This document shows positions 11,393-33,641 of a stretch of DNA of 35,709 nt, in pieces (position 1 is the stretch's first letter; the number at the start of each line of letters is the position of its first letter). The stretch is taken from NCBI GenBank assembly GCA_018648225.1, contig JABGRQ010000157.1, forward strand, positions 1 to 35,709, given 5' to 3'. The notes under the pieces were generated by a model. That model was given only the letters and a program-made list of their open reading frames with translations, had not been told where the DNA came from and did no database searches. This stretch comes from Chloroflexota bacterium. GTDB taxonomy: Bacteria; Chloroflexota; Anaerolineae; Anaerolineales; UBA11858. Both the position numbers and the translations under genes were made by a program.

Positions 11393-11426
11393 CCGCAGCT
11401 TCCGCTCCGAAAAGATCGATATTTTG

Positions 11427-11465
11427 AAGTGTGCAGGCCAAGACCCCTGCGCACTTCTTTTTTTA
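11427..11465 (+). terminator. Rho-independent terminator after betA
   Basis: Stem 11427-11437 (AAGTGTGCAGG) with 11446-11456 (CCTGCGCACTT), one G-T pair, 8-nt loop, followed by a T-rich run (CTTTTTTTT) at 11457-11465. Confidence 0.92.
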
Positions 11466-11548
11466 TCGGCACTCGGGTTTCCCACTGGTATAAAGACCTT
11501 ATGCGCCCCGGATACTGGATTAAACCCCTCCGAATTAGAGAGCGCTTA

Positions 11549-11557
11549 TGATATACT
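11549..11557 (+). promoter_or_regulatory. Possible extended -10 promoter before the SelW-like gene
   Basis: TG-A-TATACT, the extended -10 pattern, lies 54 nt before the ATG at 11611 and after the betA terminator. No good -35 box is seen, which is typical of extended -10 promoters. The rest of 11466-11610 shows no other feature. Confidence 0.4.
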
Positions 11558-11610
11558 CAAGCGCACTTGTTCGTTCCCAATCGATAAACCCAGTGAGTCT
11601 ACTCGTCCAA

Positions 11611-11835
11611 ATGGAAATCAAAATTATCTATTGCGCCGTTTGACAATATACACCCAGAGCCATCAGTCTGATGGCCGCGCTCTTGCGACAATTTGAAGCG
11701 GATATTCAGGCGATTACGCTTGTGCCGTCCGATTCGGGGAAATTTGAGGTCAGCGTAGATGGACGTTTGATTTTCTCGAAACTAAAAAACGGACGGCACA
11801 CCGATCCGGATGAAATTATCGCAATGATTAAATAG
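11611..11835 (+). CDS. SelW/SelT/SelH-family (Rdx) selenoprotein with in-frame UGA
   Basis: Reading through the TGA at 11641-11643 as selenocysteine gives a 74-residue protein that fits the SelW-like Rdx family from end to end. It starts MEIKIIYCAVU, so the redox motif is CxxU (Cys8, Sec11), then QYTPRAISLMAALLRQF with the family's Y-x-PRA, then SGKFEVSVDGRLIFSK and a C-terminal GRHTDPDEIIAMIK. These thioredoxin-fold proteins are small thiol/selenol redox proteins. With TGA as stop only 10 residues remain, yet coding continues for 63 conserved codons. A hairpin suited to Sec insertion follows the UGA, and the same window holds selD. No clear Shine-Dalgarno precedes the ATG. It lies 78 nt before trpS and may share its transcript. 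Ordinary gene finders will miss it. Confidence 0.88.
11641..11675 (+). promoter_or_regulatory. Candidate bacterial SECIS element of the SelW-like gene
   Basis: GCCATCA (11659-11665) pairs perfectly with TGATGGC (11669-11675) around the loop GTC. The loop begins 22 nt after the UGA, inside the range usual for bacterial SECIS hairpins, and its first base is G, as SelB recognition generally needs. It is inside the coding region. Confidence 0.7.
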
Positions 11836-11913
11836 AAATATACTACTCAGGCTATTTCGCATTTTTCGGCATCCCTCATGAGTTGTACACAAAAATCTGA
11901 TTAAGGAGTTTGA

Positions 11914-12915
11914 ATGACAGCAGCAAAGAAACACAAAGGGCGCGTATTTTCTGGCGCGCGCCCAACGGGACGACAGCATTTGGGGAATTATCTTGGCGCG
12001 ATCAAGAATTATGTCGCCCTGCAAGATTTATATGAAGAAGCCATCTACTGCATTGTGGATATTCACGCGCTAACAACAGTCGAAACCACTCAAAATCTGA
12101 AGCAGAATACCTACGAAATGGCGCTCGACTGGCTGGCCGCAGGGCTGTCGCCAGAAAAGAGCATGATCTTTGTGCAATCGCATATCCCCGAAGTCGTTGA
12201 ACTGAGTACATTCTTTTCAATGGTCACACCCCTGGGCAAGTTGACCGATCTACCCACCTTCAAGGAGAAAATCCGCCAGCAGCCGCATAATATCAACTAT
12301 GGGCTGGTTGGGTATCCGGTTTTAATGGCCGCAGATATTGCATTATACAAAGCGGTGGCTGTCCCCGTGGGGATTGATCAAGCCCCCCATATCGAGTTCA
12401 CGCGCGAGGTCGTGCGCTCGTTCAATTACCGTTACCAGACGAAGGTGCTGGTTGAGCCGCAAATGAAGGCTACCCAAATCCCCAAGGTCATGGGCATTGA
12501 CGGCCTGAACAAGATGAGCAAGAGTCTCGATAACCATATCGAGTTGGCGGCCACCCCCGAAGAAACACAAAAACGCGTCATGCAAATGGTCACCGATCCG
12601 CAACGGGCGCGCCGCACTGACCCCGGCAACCCGGATATATGCAATGTTTTCACCATGCACAAAATTTTCTCTACCGATGAAGACGTGCAGATGATCAATA
12701 CCGAGTGCCGTCAGGCTGGAATTGGCTGCGTGGATTGCAAAAAGATTTTCGCCAAAAATCTAAACGAACATCTGGAGCCTTTCCGCACTCGCAGGGCCGA
12801 ACTTGACCAGACTCCCGATCAGGTTTGGGAGGTTCTGCTGGATGGCGGTCAGCGTGCGCGAAAGATTGCCCAACAAACCATTGCCGAAGTGAAAGAGGCG
12901 ATCGGCCTGCCATAA
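11914..12915 (+). CDS. trpS: Tryptophanyl-tRNA synthetase, probably iron-sulfur type
   Basis: A 333-residue class I synthetase that charges tRNA-Trp. The HIGH-like signature is PTGRQHLGNYLGA (14-26) and the KMSKS motif is in GLNKMSKSLDN (about residues 202-212). Start has AAGGAG (11902-11907) at proper distance. Near the C-terminus there are four cysteines arranged C-x21-C-x6-C-x2-C (DICNVF ... TECRQAGIGCVDC). The Thermotoga-type TrpRS binds a [4Fe-4S] cluster at nearly the same spacing, next to the anticodon site. So a cluster is likely here, which would fit an oxygen-limited cell. Downstream genes follow within 40 nt each, suggesting one transcript with dtd, another tRNA-quality gene. Confidence 0.95.
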   Translation: MTAAKKHKGRVFSGARPTGRQHLGNYLGAIKNYVALQDLYEEAIYCIVDIHALTTVETTQNLKQNTYEMALDWLAAGLSPEKSMIFVQSHIPEVVELSTFFSMVTPLGKLTDLPTFKEKIRQQPHNINYGLVGYPVLMAADIALYKAVAVPVGIDQAPHIEFTREVVRSFNYRYQTKVLVEPQMKATQIPKVMGIDGLNKMSKSLDNHIELAATPEETQKRVMQMVTDPQRARRTDPGNPDICNVFTMHKIFSTDEDVQMINTECRQAGIGCVDCKKIFAKNLNEHLEPFRTRRAELDQTPDQVWEVLLDGGQRARKIAQQTIAEVKEAIGLP

Positions 12916-12955
12916 AATTTTCTCTCCCTATTTACTTCCCAAATTGGAGGCACAG

Positions 12956-13585
12956 ATGGAACCTTTTACCAACTTTCTCACGATTTTAGCCCAGGCGCTG
13001 CTCGTTATTGCCATTCCCATTCTGGTTGCGGCTGCATTCCAGTGGACGCGCGAAAGAACCGCCATGATCCGGCAAAATCTCTCCGATGAGCACTTATCGC
13101 TGATCGAAAAGGGCATTACCCTGGCTGTGAAAGCCGCCGAACAGGCTGGTTTTTCCGGCATTCTCAAAAGTGGCTCGGAGAAGAAACAATACGCCATTGA
13201 TGCAGTACAACGCTATTTAGACCGCGCCGGTGTGGAGATTGAGGTGGACGAAATTGCTACGCTGATCGAATCTGAGGTCAATTCACAATTCTCAAACTAT
13301 GCTCCACCGGTGGATACCCCCGAAACTCGCAGCGCGTTAATTGACAAAGCCGTTGAGACGGCGGTGCTGGCTGCCGAACAAAGCGGCGCCAAGAATGCGG
13401 CCATTGATATCGCCACCGGCGCAGCGCTCTCGAAGAAAGACTATGCCACAGATATAGCCGCAAAATATCTCGCAGAACACGGCCTGAAGGTTGATCCAAG
13501 CCTGGTGGATGGCATGATCGAAGCCCAGATCATGAAATTGAAACTCAAAGCGCTGGAGTGGAAAGCAACCGGCGGCAACCCGTAG
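12956..13585 (+). CDS. Membrane-anchored protein with tandem holin-LLH-like repeats
   Basis: A 209-residue protein with one N-terminal membrane segment (about residues 5-28, FLTILAQALLVIAIPILVAAAF) and a helical, charged remainder. The remainder contains two related units: LIEKGITLAVKAAEQAG ... YAIDAVQRYLDRAGVEIEVDEIATLIESEV (about 45-108) and LIDKAVETAVLAAEQSG ... YATDIAAKYLAEHGLKVDPSLVDGMIEAQI (about 125-193). The unit resembles the soluble part of LLH-type phage holins, where it occurs once. No lysin or phage gene is near, so a lysis role is doubtful; a chromosomal membrane protein is likelier. GGAGG lies just before the ATG at 12956, preferred over the TTG at 12944. It sits between trpS and dtd with 40-nt gaps. 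Confidence 0.75.
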   Translation: MEPFTNFLTILAQALLVIAIPILVAAAFQWTRERTAMIRQNLSDEHLSLIEKGITLAVKAAEQAGFSGILKSGSEKKQYAIDAVQRYLDRAGVEIEVDEIATLIESEVNSQFSNYAPPVDTPETRSALIDKAVETAVLAAEQSGAKNAAIDIATGAALSKKDYATDIAAKYLAEHGLKVDPSLVDGMIEAQIMKLKLKALEWKATGGNP

Positions 13586-13625
13586 TCAGTATCCGTTAAT
13601 CTGCAAAAAATATTAGGAACGGACC

Positions 13626-14063
13626 ATGCGAGTTTTATTGCAGCGCGTCAATCACGGACGGGTGTCTGTGGAGGGGCGCGTGATTGCTGAAATCAAATCT
13701 GGACTGGTGCTCTTGTTGGGCATCAGTCCGGATGATGGGGATGAACAGATAAACTATCTCACCCGGAAAATTGCCAATTTGCGCATCTTTGAAGATGAAG
13801 ATGGAAAGCTGAACCGCTCGATCCTGGAAATGGGTGGGGAAGCGTTGGTCATCTCTCAGTTTACGCTCTATGCGGATACCCGCAAAGGGCGCAGGCCATC
13901 CTTCACAGATGCAGCCCGCCCCGAGGACGCGCACCCGTTGGTGGCGCGCTTCGTCGAGCGTCTCACTGCCGAGGGCGTTCCGACCCAAACCGGCGAGTTC
14001 GGCGCACACATGCTGGTCGAAATTCACAACGACGGCCCCGTAACCATCTGGATGGAAAAATAA
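13626..14063 (+). CDS. dtd: D-aminoacyl-tRNA deacylase
   Basis: A 145-residue DTD, the normal size. It removes D-amino acids (and glycine from tRNA-Ala) from mischarged tRNA. The hallmark motif SQFTLYADTRKGRRPSF (about residues 78-94) and the C-terminal NDGPVTIWME, holding the Gly-cisPro that rejects L-aminoacyl-tRNA, are intact. The N-terminus MRVLLQRVNHGRVSV is canonical. It shares a plus-strand run with trpS, and the next gene starts 5 nt after its stop. Confidence 0.97.
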   Translation: MRVLLQRVNHGRVSVEGRVIAEIKSGLVLLLGISPDDGDEQINYLTRKIANLRIFEDEDGKLNRSILEMGGEALVISQFTLYADTRKGRRPSFTDAARPEDAHPLVARFVERLTAEGVPTQTGEFGAHMLVEIHNDGPVTIWMEK

Positions 14064-21230: not shown

Positions 21231-24200
21231 TTAGCCATTCTCGCCAGCCAGTCGGGCAATTTGAAGCGTGCAGTAGCGCACCATATCTTGCTTCTCTGGG
21301 GGGAGGGCGCTCTCTTCAATCTGGGCGATGCGTTCAACATCGTTCATCGCCCGGATGATGCTGACGGGTACTTCGATATCCCCTTCGGTGAATGAACTCA
21401 AGTATTCAATAGCGCCAATCAGGAAGTGGCGCATGTCGTCGTCGGCGCGCGCTGTGCGGAAGAATCCTGCCAGGGCTGGAGAAAGTTTGGTGTCACGCGC
21501 CAACATAAGGGGCGCATCCAATGCTCGTGATGTTGAGAAGGCATACAACGCGGTCGCCAATTCCGCAAAGCTTTGCACCCATTGATAGATCGATTCGCCC
21601 ATCACATCCCAAATCATCGAACGCCAGTGTGCAATCTGCGTAGGTTGATCGAGCAATTGGGCCACTTCAGCCTGCCATGTATCCGAAACGCGCCCGGAGA
21701 TGGGCTGCATGAAGGTGTCCAGATCAGTATTGAAGAGATTTTCCTGCAATAGCACTGCCAGGTCGGGTCGCAGGGTGGGCAGCAGATGCGGAATAAAGAC
21801 ATCATTGACAAAGAAATCGTTGACATCTACGCCGTGCCGTCGCAAAAGTTCCTGTTGGAACAAGGGTAAATAGTGATTCATTGCATCGCTATCTTCACGC
21901 AACGCCACAAAAGCCGAATTGCCCGCTGGGAAAGCAGTTTCAATATGACTAAGGTACTCACCACGCCAGTCCTGGTAAATGCGCAGGGTATTCAAAATTT
22001 CGTAAACCGGCAAATAAGGCAACAACCGTTCAGCAACCATGCGCTCACGCTCGGCTTCGGCAAAGTTCTTGCGAGCAAAGCGTTCTAATGAGCGAAATAG
22101 GCCGGTGGTGAGTTGGTTGATGCCCAGCACAACGGTTTGCGATTTATTATGCGAAATGGCGCGCAACAAACTGCCTTTTTTCGCCAAGGGGATGATCTCG
22201 GCGATATTTGCCAAAATCTGCTGTCCGCGATCTGTCCCCGTTCCGGATTTTCTTCTGGAAGTCGGACGGTCGCGCAGTTGCGGCATGGAACGGCCGATGA
22301 AATATGAAATGACGTGAATCCCAATCACGTCCTCATCGCGGCCGTAAGAGATATGGCGGAAATTCTCTGTTAATTCTGTCAGGAAACCTTCCATCAGGGC
22401 TTCCCTCATCCCAATGGTCAGACGTTCCAACTCGTGCAAGCTACGGCTTTGCGCTCCCAGGCGGCTTTCCGCAATCGTTTCCGCGGCGCGGATCAAATTT
22501 TCACGGTGACGGTGCTGTGCTTCCCGAATGTGATATTGCAAACCGACAAAATCGCGCACCCGCAAAAAACGTAGATGCTCAGAGATATTGCTCTGATACG
22601 TGCGTAAATCACCGCCCAGGAAAACGCCCTGCAACGGCGTAACGGCATACGCCGTGCTTTTACGTGCTGCTGCAGGTAAATTTGCCGCAAAACGACGGCG
22701 ATCATTTTCAGTATTGCCAAAAGCAAGTTTACCGGCAACACTTGAATAATAGCCGCCCTGACGCTGCATTGACTCACCACTGCCCAATTTGATGCGCACC
22801 GCATCTACTACGCCGTGTTCGGCCAGCCATGAATGTGTATCGTACTTGGCCTGACGATATAAATGCGCGGCATTGGCCTGGCTGACCTGCTGACTTAAAT
22901 CCGAACCCGCAATGAAAACTTCAGAAATAATTTCTTTAAAGCGCGCTTGTGATGCCTGCCCCGTATGTCGGCTCTGGGTCGCATAGTCCCACACCCGGTC
23001 GAGATACGAGCGAATATTGCTGACCGTATCAATATCTTCAAATAAAGGGATCAACCAAACGGGCGGAAGCTCCGCTGGGGAAAGATCGCGGCGCATTTGT
23101 TCGGCTTGAATGCGCATCTTGCGGTCAAGCGAAATTAACGCTTCTGGCTTTGACGACAAACTGATTTGCAATCCCAGCGTCATCCCAGGGTTGCCGTATT
23201 TCCCGGCGATGGTATTGATTTCGTAGATATTATAGGCCGTGGTATCAATAGCAAACGGATCGCGCGCCGTAATCAACCCCTGATTGATGCGCGGCGTCAG
23301 TACCATGCGCTGCAAAATATCGCGATAGCCCAACACTTCACGGAGCAACGGTTCCGCGGCACGGTTGTTCTGAATTTCAGGGATCAGGGCGTATAACTGC
23401 TTGCGCAGCGCTTTATTGAGTGAAAAATAAAACTCCATTGTTTCGCGGCGCTGCTGGCGCAGTTCAAACATTTTATGCTCGTAACGGTCATTATGCTGCC
23501 AAAGTACACGCGCCGGATCGCGGCGGAGATGCAGACGCGTTGCCCAGCGCTGCAAGGTTGTTGATTCCACCGAAAACGGCAAAATACCACGATAACGCTG
23601 TTCCAATTGATGCGTCAGGGTTGTAATTTCGTTTAGGAGCCTGGTAAAACGCTGGTTATGTTGTGACAAATCGGCAAGTTCGGCTTTTAGTGCGGGTTTG
23701 ATCCGCACATGTGGATCGGCCTGTTGCAGCGTATTCAGGATGCGCATCATGCGGCGCACATTTTCCATGACGACGGCCGACACCAGGCGATGTCCTTGCC
23801 CAGATGGACGGTTGCTGCCATCCCAATCGCTCCAAAATGACAAGAATGGGGACAAAGCCACATCGGAAAACAACCCGGCAAATTCTTCGCCGACAATCAG
23901 CGTGTTGAGATCGAGCAAGATTTCATCTACTTCTTGCTGCGAGTTAATAGCTACGTTCAGCCCGATATATTCCTTGAGCAATTCCTGTGCGGCTTGTTCA
24001 ATCTGTGCATTTGTGATCGGCCTCCCGGCGATCAGGGCGTTGACGACCGCATCCAGCGCCATTTCAGCCTGTAACGAATAGGATTGCGTAGGGTGAACAG
24101 TGCGATCATAGGTACGCAACCTGAATTGTTCTTGCCGCCGCTGAAGCGAATCTTTCATAAATTCCCGCTCCAGACGCTCGACCAGCCACCGGCCACTATC

Positions 24201-26846
24201 ACTTGCTTTACGCATTAGTTCGTCATAGATTGCCACACGATCCAATAAACGGTTCCCGAACACGTCCAGACGTTCGGGAATATACGATTGCAAAAACTCC
24301 CTTTGCAACTGTTGGGTATCTAACGGGCGCAGGGTCATCAACCGCTGAGACGAGCGGCTATTTTCGCAAGTTTGGAACAGGCGTTTCCCAAAGGCTTCCC
24401 ATGCTCGTGAAAGATCGAGTGAACGGCTGCGACCGCGCGCAGAAACCTTGAAGATCACTTGCTTGCGGTTATAACGCGCGTCTTCTTCGGCAATCAGGCG
24501 ATTGAGATCAATTAACAAACGACGGGTTTTACCGAGCAATACATCGGCATTATCTTTGCCCCCCAGCGTCAGGCGGAAGGTTGCCCGGCCCGTTTCAAAG
24601 CCCTTTTCGGTACGAGCAAATGTAGAGAGTGGCAACATCCCGATGCCGCTACGCGCCAAAGATGAAGCCAACCAAGATAGAGATAGCCCCGCAGGTAAGC
24701 GATTTACCCGTAAGAGGGGATACAAACTCCCCGTGGGGGGGATGATTTTCAGCCCAAAGGGGTTACGGTCCGAGGGTAAGTTCTTCGCAGCTCGAAGAAG
24801 AGCCTGCGTCCGCTCGTAGAGAATCGAGTTGCGCAGATGCCAAAAAGCGCGCGTGGCCTGCGTTGAACTGCGATAAAACAAATAGCTGATGAAAATAGCG
24901 GCAATATTGGGCCGGATGTGGGAATTGAGCGCGTTAAAACGCTCGCGGATCTGCCGGTCACGAATTTCGACGACCGCTAGTCTGGCCCCGGCGTAACTAT
25001 CCGTCTTCGACATGGAATGCACCGAGATCACGCGATCAGCCTGCGCTGCTGTGATCGCCCCATGTCGTACCAGTTCGGCAGCAATCTGGCGAACGGTCTT
25101 AATTTCCGGCAATTCGCACACCGGAGCAACATTCTGGTAGGCCAGATCATCAACCACATAGATATTATTTCGCAGGCAATACGTGACCAATCGGCGGGTG
25201 TCAGTATCATCGAAGATTTGGCCGGTGGCGTTATGCGGATTATTAACCGCTACCGCGCCGCGCTGCAGCCAGGATGCATCTTCCTGACAGAGTTGCTCTA
25301 TTTTTTGGATGATGCCGTCTACATCCAACCCCAAAGATTCCGACAATGGCACGGGGTAGGTTTTGACAAAGCACTGTTCGTAAGACCAACTCAGGTCGGG
25401 AATTACCACTTCTGAGACACCACAATGAAAGCCCAGAATGCTCAAAGCGGTGCGCGATGATCCGCTAACCACGGAGCAGGCTTCGGGCTGATATTGCGGC
25501 TGATGTTTGATAAAGGCGGCCAAAAAACTACGCTGCAAGGCATTGATCCATGCGGGGTGGTGTGCGTTGAGAACGAGTGCATCGAGCAGTTCATCAGTTT
25601 TTAGTTCGGTGAACTCATCGAAGATGTACCCCTTCCACGCATGCTGAATCCTGCCAGCCAGTACAGCCGCTTTTTCTTCTACCGCCCTCAGGGATTTGGC
25701 TAATGTTTGGGCACGCCGATCCACTAATTTTTCCAGGCGCTGTTCCGCCCGTTCCGCCAAATCGGGTAAAACCGTCTCCGCTGTAATTCCTAATCCTAAT
25801 CCTTCAAAAGCTGGTTTTGCATAAGGTACATCATCTGGAATTTTTGCCTGAAGTGTTGCCAGATTTTGTGTGAGCAAAAAGTCGAGAAATTCGGCTTCAG
25901 CCGCGGAGGGGGTGCCCTTAAGATTGAAATGCACGTTTTCGATGACACTCAGAAAATCGGCGTTCCCAACGATGAATACAGTAGGCAAACTGTGCAACCG
26001 TTTCGCAAATACGGCAGGGGTCAGCAGGCGGATAACTCGCTGCACAAGTTTGGCTTCACGCGCCAAAGAGAGATGGTTGGGCGCGTTGTTGGCCTCGATA
26101 AAAAACAGAAGCTTTTCAATGCTCAGCAGGCGCAACTTGCGCCGCGTAACTTCATCGAGCAGGCCGCCAATCAGCATAAAGGTCGGCATGTTGAGCTGAT
26201 CGTTAAAGGACTGCTCGATTTGCACCAGGGCTGTTTGCTCGTCGTCGGCCAGATCATCAAAAAGCAGATTGGGGATCGTCTTTAGCTGGGGCTGGAGTTC
26301 GCACTGATAGCTGATGATACGCGCCGGGGTGAACTCCAAATAAGACGACAAGGCAAACAAGATGATGCGCAGCATTTCGTGATTGCCGCCCATGCCAATA
26401 ATAATTTCACGTTTGCCCGATTTTTCGCCCGTGTCGTAATCGATCGGCTCCTGCTGATTTTCCAGCCAGGCGCGGAAGGCGTCAATGAGGGCGTGGGGCT
26501 TCTTGCGCGAATATCCACCCCGGGGCATATATGGCGCACTTTTCTGAATTGTGCGAATCAAAAATTCAAGTTTTGGCTTGTCTTCGGCCTTCCAACCAAG
26601 ATATTCTAAAATTGCGTCGGGGTCGGCGTCGTGCAGCTCTTCGCGATGAATATCGATGCCCAGTGCCGTGCGCAAATAAGCCGATGATATGCTCACATCC
26701 TGCACCGGGTTCCCGATGTGGAAATTAACGCGCTCTTCATCGGGAACTGGCGCCGCGGCAGTAGATTCGCTGATCTCCGAAACGCGTGCCACGCGGATCG
26801 GCTTGAGGCGAAAACTGGCCTGAGGGTCAAATGGATGGGCTTTCAT
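21231..26846 (-). CDS. Giant fusion: PLP aminotransferase-like region plus divergent PEP carboxylase-like region
   Basis: An 1871-residue protein, by far the largest here. Residues about 35-430 look like a first, degenerate aminotransferase unit (FHIGNPVQD near 42, KREIIIGMGGNHEMLRIIL near 145). Residues about 430-790 hold an active-looking fold-type I aminotransferase: NNPHNATG (535-542), VVDDLAYQ (564-571) and the PLP Lys614 in SVHSMSKTDSYAGAR. From about 870 the chain resembles phosphoenolpyruvate carboxylase over its length: TVHPTQS (His918), WSDWDGSNRPSG (near 1000), IPLFEDIDT (near 1265), FIAGSD (near 1312) and GSGESMQRQGG (near 1352). By hand alignment the usual catalytic Arg of DIRQES, Lys of SDSxKD, and His and first Arg of FHGRGG are replaced. 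Start is the ATG at 26846 (GGAAG ahead); a GTG at 26870 lies inside a repeat. Stands alone, convergent with the exporter. Confidence 0.8.
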   Translation of the reverse strand: MKAHPFDPQASFRLKPIRVARVSEISESTAAAPVPDEERVNFHIGNPVQDVSISSAYLRTALGIDIHREELHDADPDAILEYLGWKAEDKPKLEFLIRTIQKSAPYMPRGGYSRKKPHALIDAFRAWLENQQEPIDYDTGEKSGKREIIIGMGGNHEMLRIILFALSSYLEFTPARIISYQCELQPQLKTIPNLLFDDLADDEQTALVQIEQSFNDQLNMPTFMLIGGLLDEVTRRKLRLLSIEKLLFFIEANNAPNHLSLAREAKLVQRVIRLLTPAVFAKRLHSLPTVFIVGNADFLSVIENVHFNLKGTPSAAEAEFLDFLLTQNLATLQAKIPDDVPYAKPAFEGLGLGITAETVLPDLAERAEQRLEKLVDRRAQTLAKSLRAVEEKAAVLAGRIQHAWKGYIFDEFTELKTDELLDALVLNAHHPAWINALQRSFLAAFIKHQPQYQPEACSVVSGSSRTALSILGFHCGVSEVVIPDLSWSYEQCFVKTYPVPLSESLGLDVDGIIQKIEQLCQEDASWLQRGAVAVNNPHNATGQIFDDTDTRRLVTYCLRNNIYVVDDLAYQNVAPVCELPEIKTVRQIAAELVRHGAITAAQADRVISVHSMSKTDSYAGARLAVVEIRDRQIRERFNALNSHIRPNIAAIFISYLFYRSSTQATRAFWHLRNSILYERTQALLRAAKNLPSDRNPFGLKIIPPTGSLYPLLRVNRLPAGLSLSWLASSLARSGIGMLPLSTFARTEKGFETGRATFRLTLGGKDNADVLLGKTRRLLIDLNRLIAEEDARYNRKQVIFKVSARGRSRSLDLSRAWEAFGKRLFQTCENSRSSQRLMTLRPLDTQQLQREFLQSYIPERLDVFGNRLLDRVAIYDELMRKASDSGRWLVERLEREFMKDSLQRRQEQFRLRTYDRTVHPTQSYSLQAEMALDAVVNALIAGRPITNAQIEQAAQELLKEYIGLNVAINSQQEVDEILLDLNTLIVGEEFAGLFSDVALSPFLSFWSDWDGSNRPSGQGHRLVSAVVMENVRRMMRILNTLQQADPHVRIKPALKAELADLSQHNQRFTRLLNEITTLTHQLEQRYRGILPFSVESTTLQRWATRLHLRRDPARVLWQHNDRYEHKMFELRQQRRETMEFYFSLNKALRKQLYALIPEIQNNRAAEPLLREVLGYRDILQRMVLTPRINQGLITARDPFAIDTTAYNIYEINTIAGKYGNPGMTLGLQISLSSKPEALISLDRKMRIQAEQMRRDLSPAELPPVWLIPLFEDIDTVSNIRSYLDRVWDYATQSRHTGQASQARFKEIISEVFIAGSDLSQQVSQANAAHLYRQAKYDTHSWLAEHGVVDAVRIKLGSGESMQRQGGYYSSVAGKLAFGNTENDRRRFAANLPAAARKSTAYAVTPLQGVFLGGDLRTYQSNISEHLRFLRVRDFVGLQYHIREAQHRHRENLIRAAETIAESRLGAQSRSLHELERLTIGMREALMEGFLTELTENFRHISYGRDEDVIGIHVISYFIGRSMPQLRDRPTSRRKSGTGTDRGQQILANIAEIIPLAKKGSLLRAISHNKSQTVVLGINQLTTGLFRSLERFARKNFAEAERERMVAERLLPYLPVYEILNTLRIYQDWRGEYLSHIETAFPAGNSAFVALREDSDAMNHYLPLFQQELLRRHGVDVNDFFVNDVFIPHLLPTLRPDLAVLLQENLFNTDLDTFMQPISGRVSDTWQAEVAQLLDQPTQIAHWRSMIWDVMGESIYQWVQSFAELATALYAFSTSRALDAPLMLARDTKLSPALAGFFRTARADDDMRHFLIGAIEYLSSFTEGDIEVPVSIIRAMNDVERIAQIEESALPPEKQDMVRYCTLQIARLAGENG

Positions 26847-26864
26847 TACAATGGGCTTCCAAGG

Positions 26865-26940
26865 GGACACGGATGACGCGGCTTAGGCGGATTTTTTAAT
26901 TATTTATCCGCGCTAATCTGTTAAATCCGCGTCATCGGCG
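26865..26940. repeat. Palindromic intergenic repeat ('acggatgacgcgg' type)
   Basis: Outer arms ACGGATGACGCGG (26869-26881) and CCGCGTCATCGGCGT (right end) are near-complementary, with inner ATCCGC/GCGGAT copies and an AT-rich centre. It fills nearly the whole gap between the SPFH gene and the giant gene, and is a different family from those at 1-75 and 1734-1796. Confidence 0.8.
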
Positions 26941-32570: not shown

Positions 32571-33641
32571 ATGAGCGAACAAAACGCCGAAACTTCCTCC
32601 GAAAAGAAAATTCGCCTGACAACGCTGTCAAGCTGTTCGGGTTGAGCGTCAAAATTAAGCGCAGAAGCGCTGGCGCAGGTGCTGCGTCCAATTGAAAATA
32701 TATTTGACAACCGCGATTATCCTGATCTTTTAGTGGGGCTTGGCGATCCCGATGATGCCGCGGTCTGGCGGCTCGACGGTGAACGCGCCTTGGTGGTGAC
32801 AACCGATTTTTTCACCCCTGTCGTGGATACACCCTATGAATACGGAGCCATCGCCGCGGCAAATAGTCTCTCGGATGTGTATGCGATGGGCGGCACACCA
32901 TTTTTGGCGCTGAATATAGCCGCTTTCCCCCCTGAATTGCCACCCGATTTCCTCGGCGAAATTTTACGCGGCGGGGCAGAGAAGGCGTGCGAGGCCAAAG
33001 TGGTCGTCGTCGGGGGGCATACCATTCAGGATAAAGAACCAAAATACGGCCTGATTGTGCTGGGTTTCGCACATCCCGATAAAATGATGACCAAAGGTGG
33101 TGCGCGTCCCGGCGATGTGCTGCTGCTCAGCAAGCCGCTGGGCTTTGGCACAACGACCACAGCCATCAAGGGTCAAAAAGCATCTCCAGCAGATTTGAAC
33201 GAAGTCATCGAGTGGATGTCACGTCTGAACCGCGAGGCGGCTTCCCTGGGGGTGGAGTTTGGCACCCGGGGAGCGACGGACATCACCGGATTTAGCTTGC
33301 TCGGCCACGCCTGGGAGATGGCATCTGCCTCGGGGGTTGGCTTGCGCTTCGAGTGGAATAAAATCCCCTTCACCTCAGGGGCGATGCGTTATGCCAAAGA
33401 TTTTATTTTCCCCGGCGGAGCATCCGACAATCGCCTGTATTTTTCTAAAAATGTGCGTTTCATCCGCGAGATGGAAGAGTACGAAGAACTGCTGCTCTTT
33501 GATCCGCAAACCAGCGGTGGTTTGCTGCTGGCCGTACCGCCCAAAAATGTCGAAGCCATGCTGCAACGCGCCGAAGCCATTCATCAGCCACTCTGGGTGA
33601 TGGGTGAAGTCACCGAAGGAAACTATATCGAGATTGTCTAA
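32571..33641 (+). CDS. selD: Selenide, water dikinase (selenophosphate synthetase), selenocysteine-containing
   Basis: Reading TGA at 32643-32645 as selenocysteine gives a 356-residue SelD. Before the UGA: MSEQ ... IRLTTLSSCSG, as in the canonical N-terminus; after it ASKLSAEALAQVL. Sec25 takes the place of E. coli Cys17 and Lys28 that of Lys20, the catalytic pair. The ATP-binding parts follow: GLGDPDDAAVW, TDFFTPVVD, NSLSDVYAMGG, VVGGHTIQD, TDITGFSLLGHAWEMA, DPQTSGGLL. The enzyme makes monoselenophosphate from selenide and ATP for Sec-tRNA or selenouridine. A downstream GTG start (32679) would lose the catalytic segment, so the extended reading is preferred. Sec-containing SelD is known from several bacteria and archaea; it makes the enzyme dependent on its own product. 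Confidence 0.92.
32643..32671 (+). promoter_or_regulatory. Candidate bacterial SECIS element of selD
   Basis: AGCGC (32658-32662) and GCGCT (32667-32671) pair around the loop AGAA, whose second base is G. The loop begins 17 nt after the UGA, near the lower end of the normal range. The stem is only 5 bp, so this call is weaker than the SelW-like one. Confidence 0.55.

Follow-up and report, generated by a model that had tools for sequence, protein, structure and literature searches.

A predicted SelW-like selenoprotein gene with an in-frame UGA and a covarying SECIS hairpin in an order of Anaerolineae

SelW-like selenoproteins have been known as a family in bacteria since at least 2005. They are the most abundant selenoproteins in the Sargasso Sea data, and in the GOS data they belong to the most widespread ones (PMC1088965, PMC2398784). 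They are also present in Geobacter, Desulfotalea and Symbiobacterium, among others (PMC1794560). Their genes are often missed in annotation (PMC4607533). For SelW of Campylobacter jejuni, translation past the UGA has been shown by Ribo-seq and proteomics (PMC11955535).

We analyzed a stretch of 35,709 nucleotides from a Chloroflexota bacterium (contig C157, here called the window). The genome is a draft of 4.02 Mb in 226 contigs and is 97% complete. In a named genome collection the nearest relatives were Anaerolineae MAGs, and on this similarity we assign the organism to the Anaerolineae. The gene described here, which we call selW, shares with the marine SelW-like selenoproteins and those of Geobacter, Desulfotalea and Symbiobacterium the CxxU motif, membership in the SelW/Rdx family, an in-frame UGA and a bacterial SECIS element right after it. 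It differs from them in its lineage, an order of Anaerolineae (Chloroflexota), and in usually adjoining trpS. The C. jejuni gene (CJnc60) is likewise SelW-like, has a UGA-encoded selenocysteine (Sec) and was missed in annotation. Campylobacter matches to the SelW-like query were about 40% identical, and the protein from the window scored 82.5 with the Campylobacter-type model NF041051, slightly below its cut-off of 88. Unlike selW of the window, the Campylobacter loci that we fetched have no adjoining trpS gene. We found no report in the literature of a SelW-like selenoprotein in this Anaerolineae order.

The gene and its internal UGA are:

11611–11835, + strand: SelW-like (Rdx family) gene, predicted selenoprotein of 74 amino acids with Sec at residue 11; stop codon TAG
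11641–11643, + strand: in-frame UGA, predicted Sec codon (C8-A-V-U11); TGA in all listed copies from the order, Cys codon in distant Chloroflexota homologues

The reading frame extends from an ATG at 11611 to the TAG at 11833–11835, and the TGA at 11641–11643 is its sole interruption. Read through, it specifies MEIKIIYCAVUQYTPRAISLMAALLRQFEADIQAITLVPSDSGKFEVSVDGRLIFSKLKNGRHTDPDEIIAMIK. The original prediction, made from the window alone, proposed that this frame holds conserved family sequence on both sides of the TGA, that the UGA occupies the Cys/Sec place of a CxxC/CxxU motif, that the product would belong to PF10262, and that standard gene calling would give nothing here or a spurious open reading frame. 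These proposals held. The Pfam Rdx profile (PF10262) matched residues 2–73 with an E-value of 4.1e-20 (72.2 bits; cut-off 22.6), and the NCBIfam model TIGR02174 (CXXU_selWTH) gave 60.3 bits against a cut-off of 34.2, placing the protein in the Rdx, or SelT/SelW/SelH, group above curated cut-offs and over nearly its whole length. Relatives were similar throughout. Residue 11 aligned with the second Cys of the CxxC motif in solved SelW-related proteins, and the Cys-type relatives agreed. A plain listing of open reading frames of at least 80 amino acids did not contain selW; the only overlapping frames were at 11424–11696 (+ strand, another frame) and 11782–12024 (− strand). Ordinary gene finders miss the gene because the internal "stop" codon hides its frame.

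The predicted structure is that expected of the family. An AlphaFold2 model of the protein had a pLDDT of 97.4, and its best Foldseek matches, 2fa8 and 2obk, are crystal structures of SelW-related proteins (TM 0.92). In the model, a strand at residues 2–8 leads into the motif at 8–11 and is followed by a helix at 14–31, giving a predicted thioredoxin-like fold with the CxxC/CxxU motif after the first strand (TM 0.92 to 2fa8). The Cys-type Rdx proteins 2fa8, 2obk, 3dex and 2p0g have the same fold and the same CxxC position (TM 0.90–0.93). They differ in having Cys where the SelW-like protein has Sec, and identity to them is about 26–35%.

We found that the in-frame UGA is a lasting feature of the gene. 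In a sample of 301 genomes from the order, selW was found in 175, and every copy listed (more than 150, the weakest matches not among them) had exactly one in-frame TGA. The aligned proteins have a YC-x-x-U-x-Y motif and are similar along their whole length, on both sides of the TGA. Among 400 Chloroflexota genomes both forms were present, with one TGA in many families and no stop in others. The stop-free members that we fetched have a Cys codon (TGC or TGT) at the place of the UGA, and these Cys-type versions are found in more distant Chloroflexota. A UGA at the place of a conserved redox Cys, kept in relatives and having Cys homologues, is the pattern by which selenoprotein genes are recognized. 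Comparison of the codons after the UGA with those of the nearest relative (locus L020) gave 17 synonymous differences and nine residue changes, with third positions changing most, and 44–45 of 60 bases differed in each flank when compared without gaps. Judged from these substitutions, the segment after the UGA is under coding-type conservation.

Downstream of the UGA lies a candidate RNA element:

11659–11675, + strand: predicted bacterial SECIS hairpin, 7-bp stem GCCATCA/TGATGGC with loop GUC at 11666–11668, identified by its fold, bSECIS fit and compensatory changes

The original prediction described a perfect 7-bp hairpin with a G-first loop beginning 22 nt after the UGA. The stem and loop stood as described, and the position needed correction: the perfect stem starts at 11659, 15 nt past the UGA, and 22 nt is the distance to the apical loop. 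The published bSECIS model calls for a loop of 3–9 nt with a G in its first two bases, located 16–37 nt after the UGA, and a stem of 4–16 bp with an energy of at most −7.5 kcal/mol (PMC13188914). With a GUC loop at 22 nt, 7 bp and −13.1 kcal/mol, the selW hairpin fits this model, and it covaries across relatives. The single-sequence folding energy was unremarkable (z = −1.21; 23 of 200 shuffles folded as well), and we therefore applied family-level tests. The weight of the hairpin comes from comparison across relatives, not from its energy in one sequence. An Rfam scan of the window gave no match.

Two comparisons across relatives support the hairpin. The bSECIS fit was judged on the minimum-energy fold, and the null was the same amino acids recoded with family codon usage. 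There were 58 fits among 67 distinct Sec genes versus 24.9 expected under this synonymous recoding, and three among 19 Cys genes versus 5.2 expected. Pairing was determined in the 43 genes, selW of the window among them, whose codon 18 does not end in G. The seven stem pairs were standard in 94% of cells versus 17–58% when the pairing was slid by 1–3 bases. Exchanges of A-U for G-C and of C-G for U-A occurred at pairs 18–30, 19–29, 21–27 and 22–26 in these genes. Double changes were found in 45 cells versus 13.8 in shuffles, and none of 1000 shuffles reached 45. In this covariation test, the numbers of paired cells and of cells with double changes exceeded the shuffles; the number of pairs with double changes and the number of pair types were not above them. 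Because the shuffles leave relatedness in, the weight lies on the null from synonymous recoding and on the controls with slid pairing.

Most of the other 24 genes, which have GTG at residue 18, have the hairpin in a second register, 4–5 bases nearer the UGA. Its loop is CGUGA or GUG, still inside the bSECIS model. This register was seen at loci L022, L032, L042, L055–L063 and L065–L068, among others. The 43 first-register genes also pair partly in the second register (69% of cells).

The genome contains the machinery for Sec. Profile searches detected selA (543 bits; cut-off 268) and the EF-Tu-like part of selB (299 bits; cut-off 242), and the C-terminal part of selB lies within the same 641-amino-acid reading frame. 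A tRNA-Sec gene (selC) was found at the extreme end of contig C42 (53 bits; gathering score 47). Its sequence reads CTTCAAA, which gives TCA as the anticodon. The contig end seems to have cut a few bases from the start of its acceptor stem. This loss is probably why ARAGORN called no tRNA at the truncated selC; it called none in the window either. The fourth gene is in the window itself:

32571–33641, + strand: selD, selenophosphate synthetase (TIGR00476), with an in-frame TGA at 32643–32645 (SGU-ASK)

The TGA of selD stands at the Sec/Cys place, and selD is itself predicted to be a selenoprotein gene with TGA at the Sec position. Plain open reading frame calling begins selD too late, at 32679, and a hairpin with a G-first loop (GUG) lies about 33 nt after its UGA. 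All of selA, selB, selC and selD are thus present in the genome, selC being short by a few bases at the contig end. Across the sample of the order, selA was found in 167 of 175 selW carriers versus 79 of 126 non-carriers (Fisher p = 3e-13, uncorrected for relatedness). At least some of the eight carrier genomes with no visible selA are incomplete drafts.

The surroundings of selW include:

11426–11457, + strand: terminator-like (intrinsic) hairpin of 12 pairs followed by T7, after an upstream choline-dehydrogenase-like gene
11914–12915, + strand: trpS, tryptophan–tRNA ligase (TIGR00233, 303 bits; cut-off 177), directly downstream of selW

The upstream hairpin is strong, lies between selW and the choline-dehydrogenase-like gene, and suggests that selW begins a transcription unit; a simple sigma-70 scan found no consensus promoter for it. 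Downstream on the same strand are trpS, a small holin-LLH-like gene and dtd. The middle gene (12944–13585, + strand) encodes a small protein that carries a domain of phage holin (LLH) superfamily 6, and the close relatives L020 and L038 have it too. Elsewhere in the window, a 1879-amino-acid open frame occupies 21231–26870 on the − strand.

The neighbourhood is conserved within the order. At 45 of the 48 order loci with room downstream, trpS lies directly 3' of selW on the same strand (44 of 47 distinct loci, since L020 and L026 seem to represent one place), and at the remaining three dtd directly follows selW. Outside the order, trpS was near selW at none of 20 loci, in fetched stretches that reached at most about 3 kb to each side. 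The selW-trpS(-dtd) gene order is seen at 11611–14063 of the window and in loci L020–L071, and is absent from the 20 loci that belong to other orders and classes in the phylum. We found no mention of this linkage in the open-access literature. The pairing could be functional, with Sec decoding at a UGA close to the start of a selW-trpS transcript tying expression of TrpRS to redox state or selenium supply (polarity upon termination at the selW UGA would be one way), or with the SelW-like protein serving thiols of TrpRS. We regard such a role as unlikely.

Taken together, we conclude with a probability of about 97% that 11611–11835 is a functional SelW-like selenoprotein gene in which the UGA at 11641–11643 is read as Sec through SelB and the hairpin. 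The computational basis is family membership, the conserved UGA, the machinery genes, the covarying hairpin and the predicted fold. The TGA is one base away from TGC or TGT, and Cys homologues with these codons exist in the phylum, so it could in principle be a nonsense mutation or a miscalled Cys codon in a Cys-type Rdx gene. Such a pseudogene or assembly error is extremely improbable. All listed copies from the order share this TGA, as do many other Chloroflexota, the frame is conserved past it, and the covarying hairpin is absent from Cys genes. Conservation of the TGA across independent assemblies already refutes this explanation. The original prediction would likewise have failed had selB and selC been missing, or had similarity among close relatives ended at a plain stop; similarity was instead kept around a conserved TGA, and selA, selB and selC, which it expected elsewhere in the genome, were found together with selD. 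Every check that it proposed and that we ran supported its overall reading.

The conserved position of selW directly upstream of trpS in the order raises a different explanation, in which a near-cognate tRNA (e.g., Trp) reads through the UGA, or the UGA serves as a regulatory stop; the hairpin would then have nothing to do with Sec, and termination or read-through at the UGA would regulate the adjacent trpS. However, the UGA coincides precisely with the Cys position of the CxxC motif, where relatives have Cys and not Trp; it travels with selA; and it is also found in distant lineages without a neighbouring trpS. We consider this explanation very improbable.

If selW is a selenoprotein gene, SelA would make Sec-tRNA from selenophosphate supplied by SelD. 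SelB loaded with Sec-tRNA would bind the hairpin 15–32 nt downstream of the UGA and deliver Sec, so that Sec is most likely inserted at residue 11. The product, 74 amino acids long, would be thioredoxin-like and carry a C-x-x-U redox pair, and it is probably a thiol/selenol oxidoreductase.

As far as literature searches go, three points are possibly new: the conservation of the gene in a little-studied order of Chloroflexota, the existence of two hairpin registers, and the linkage to trpS. The analysis adds an order-wide, easily missed set of Chloroflexota selenoprotein genes with an RNA element backed by compensatory changes. Linkage to the translation-related genes trpS and dtd is specific to the order and provides a lead on the function of the SelW-like protein.
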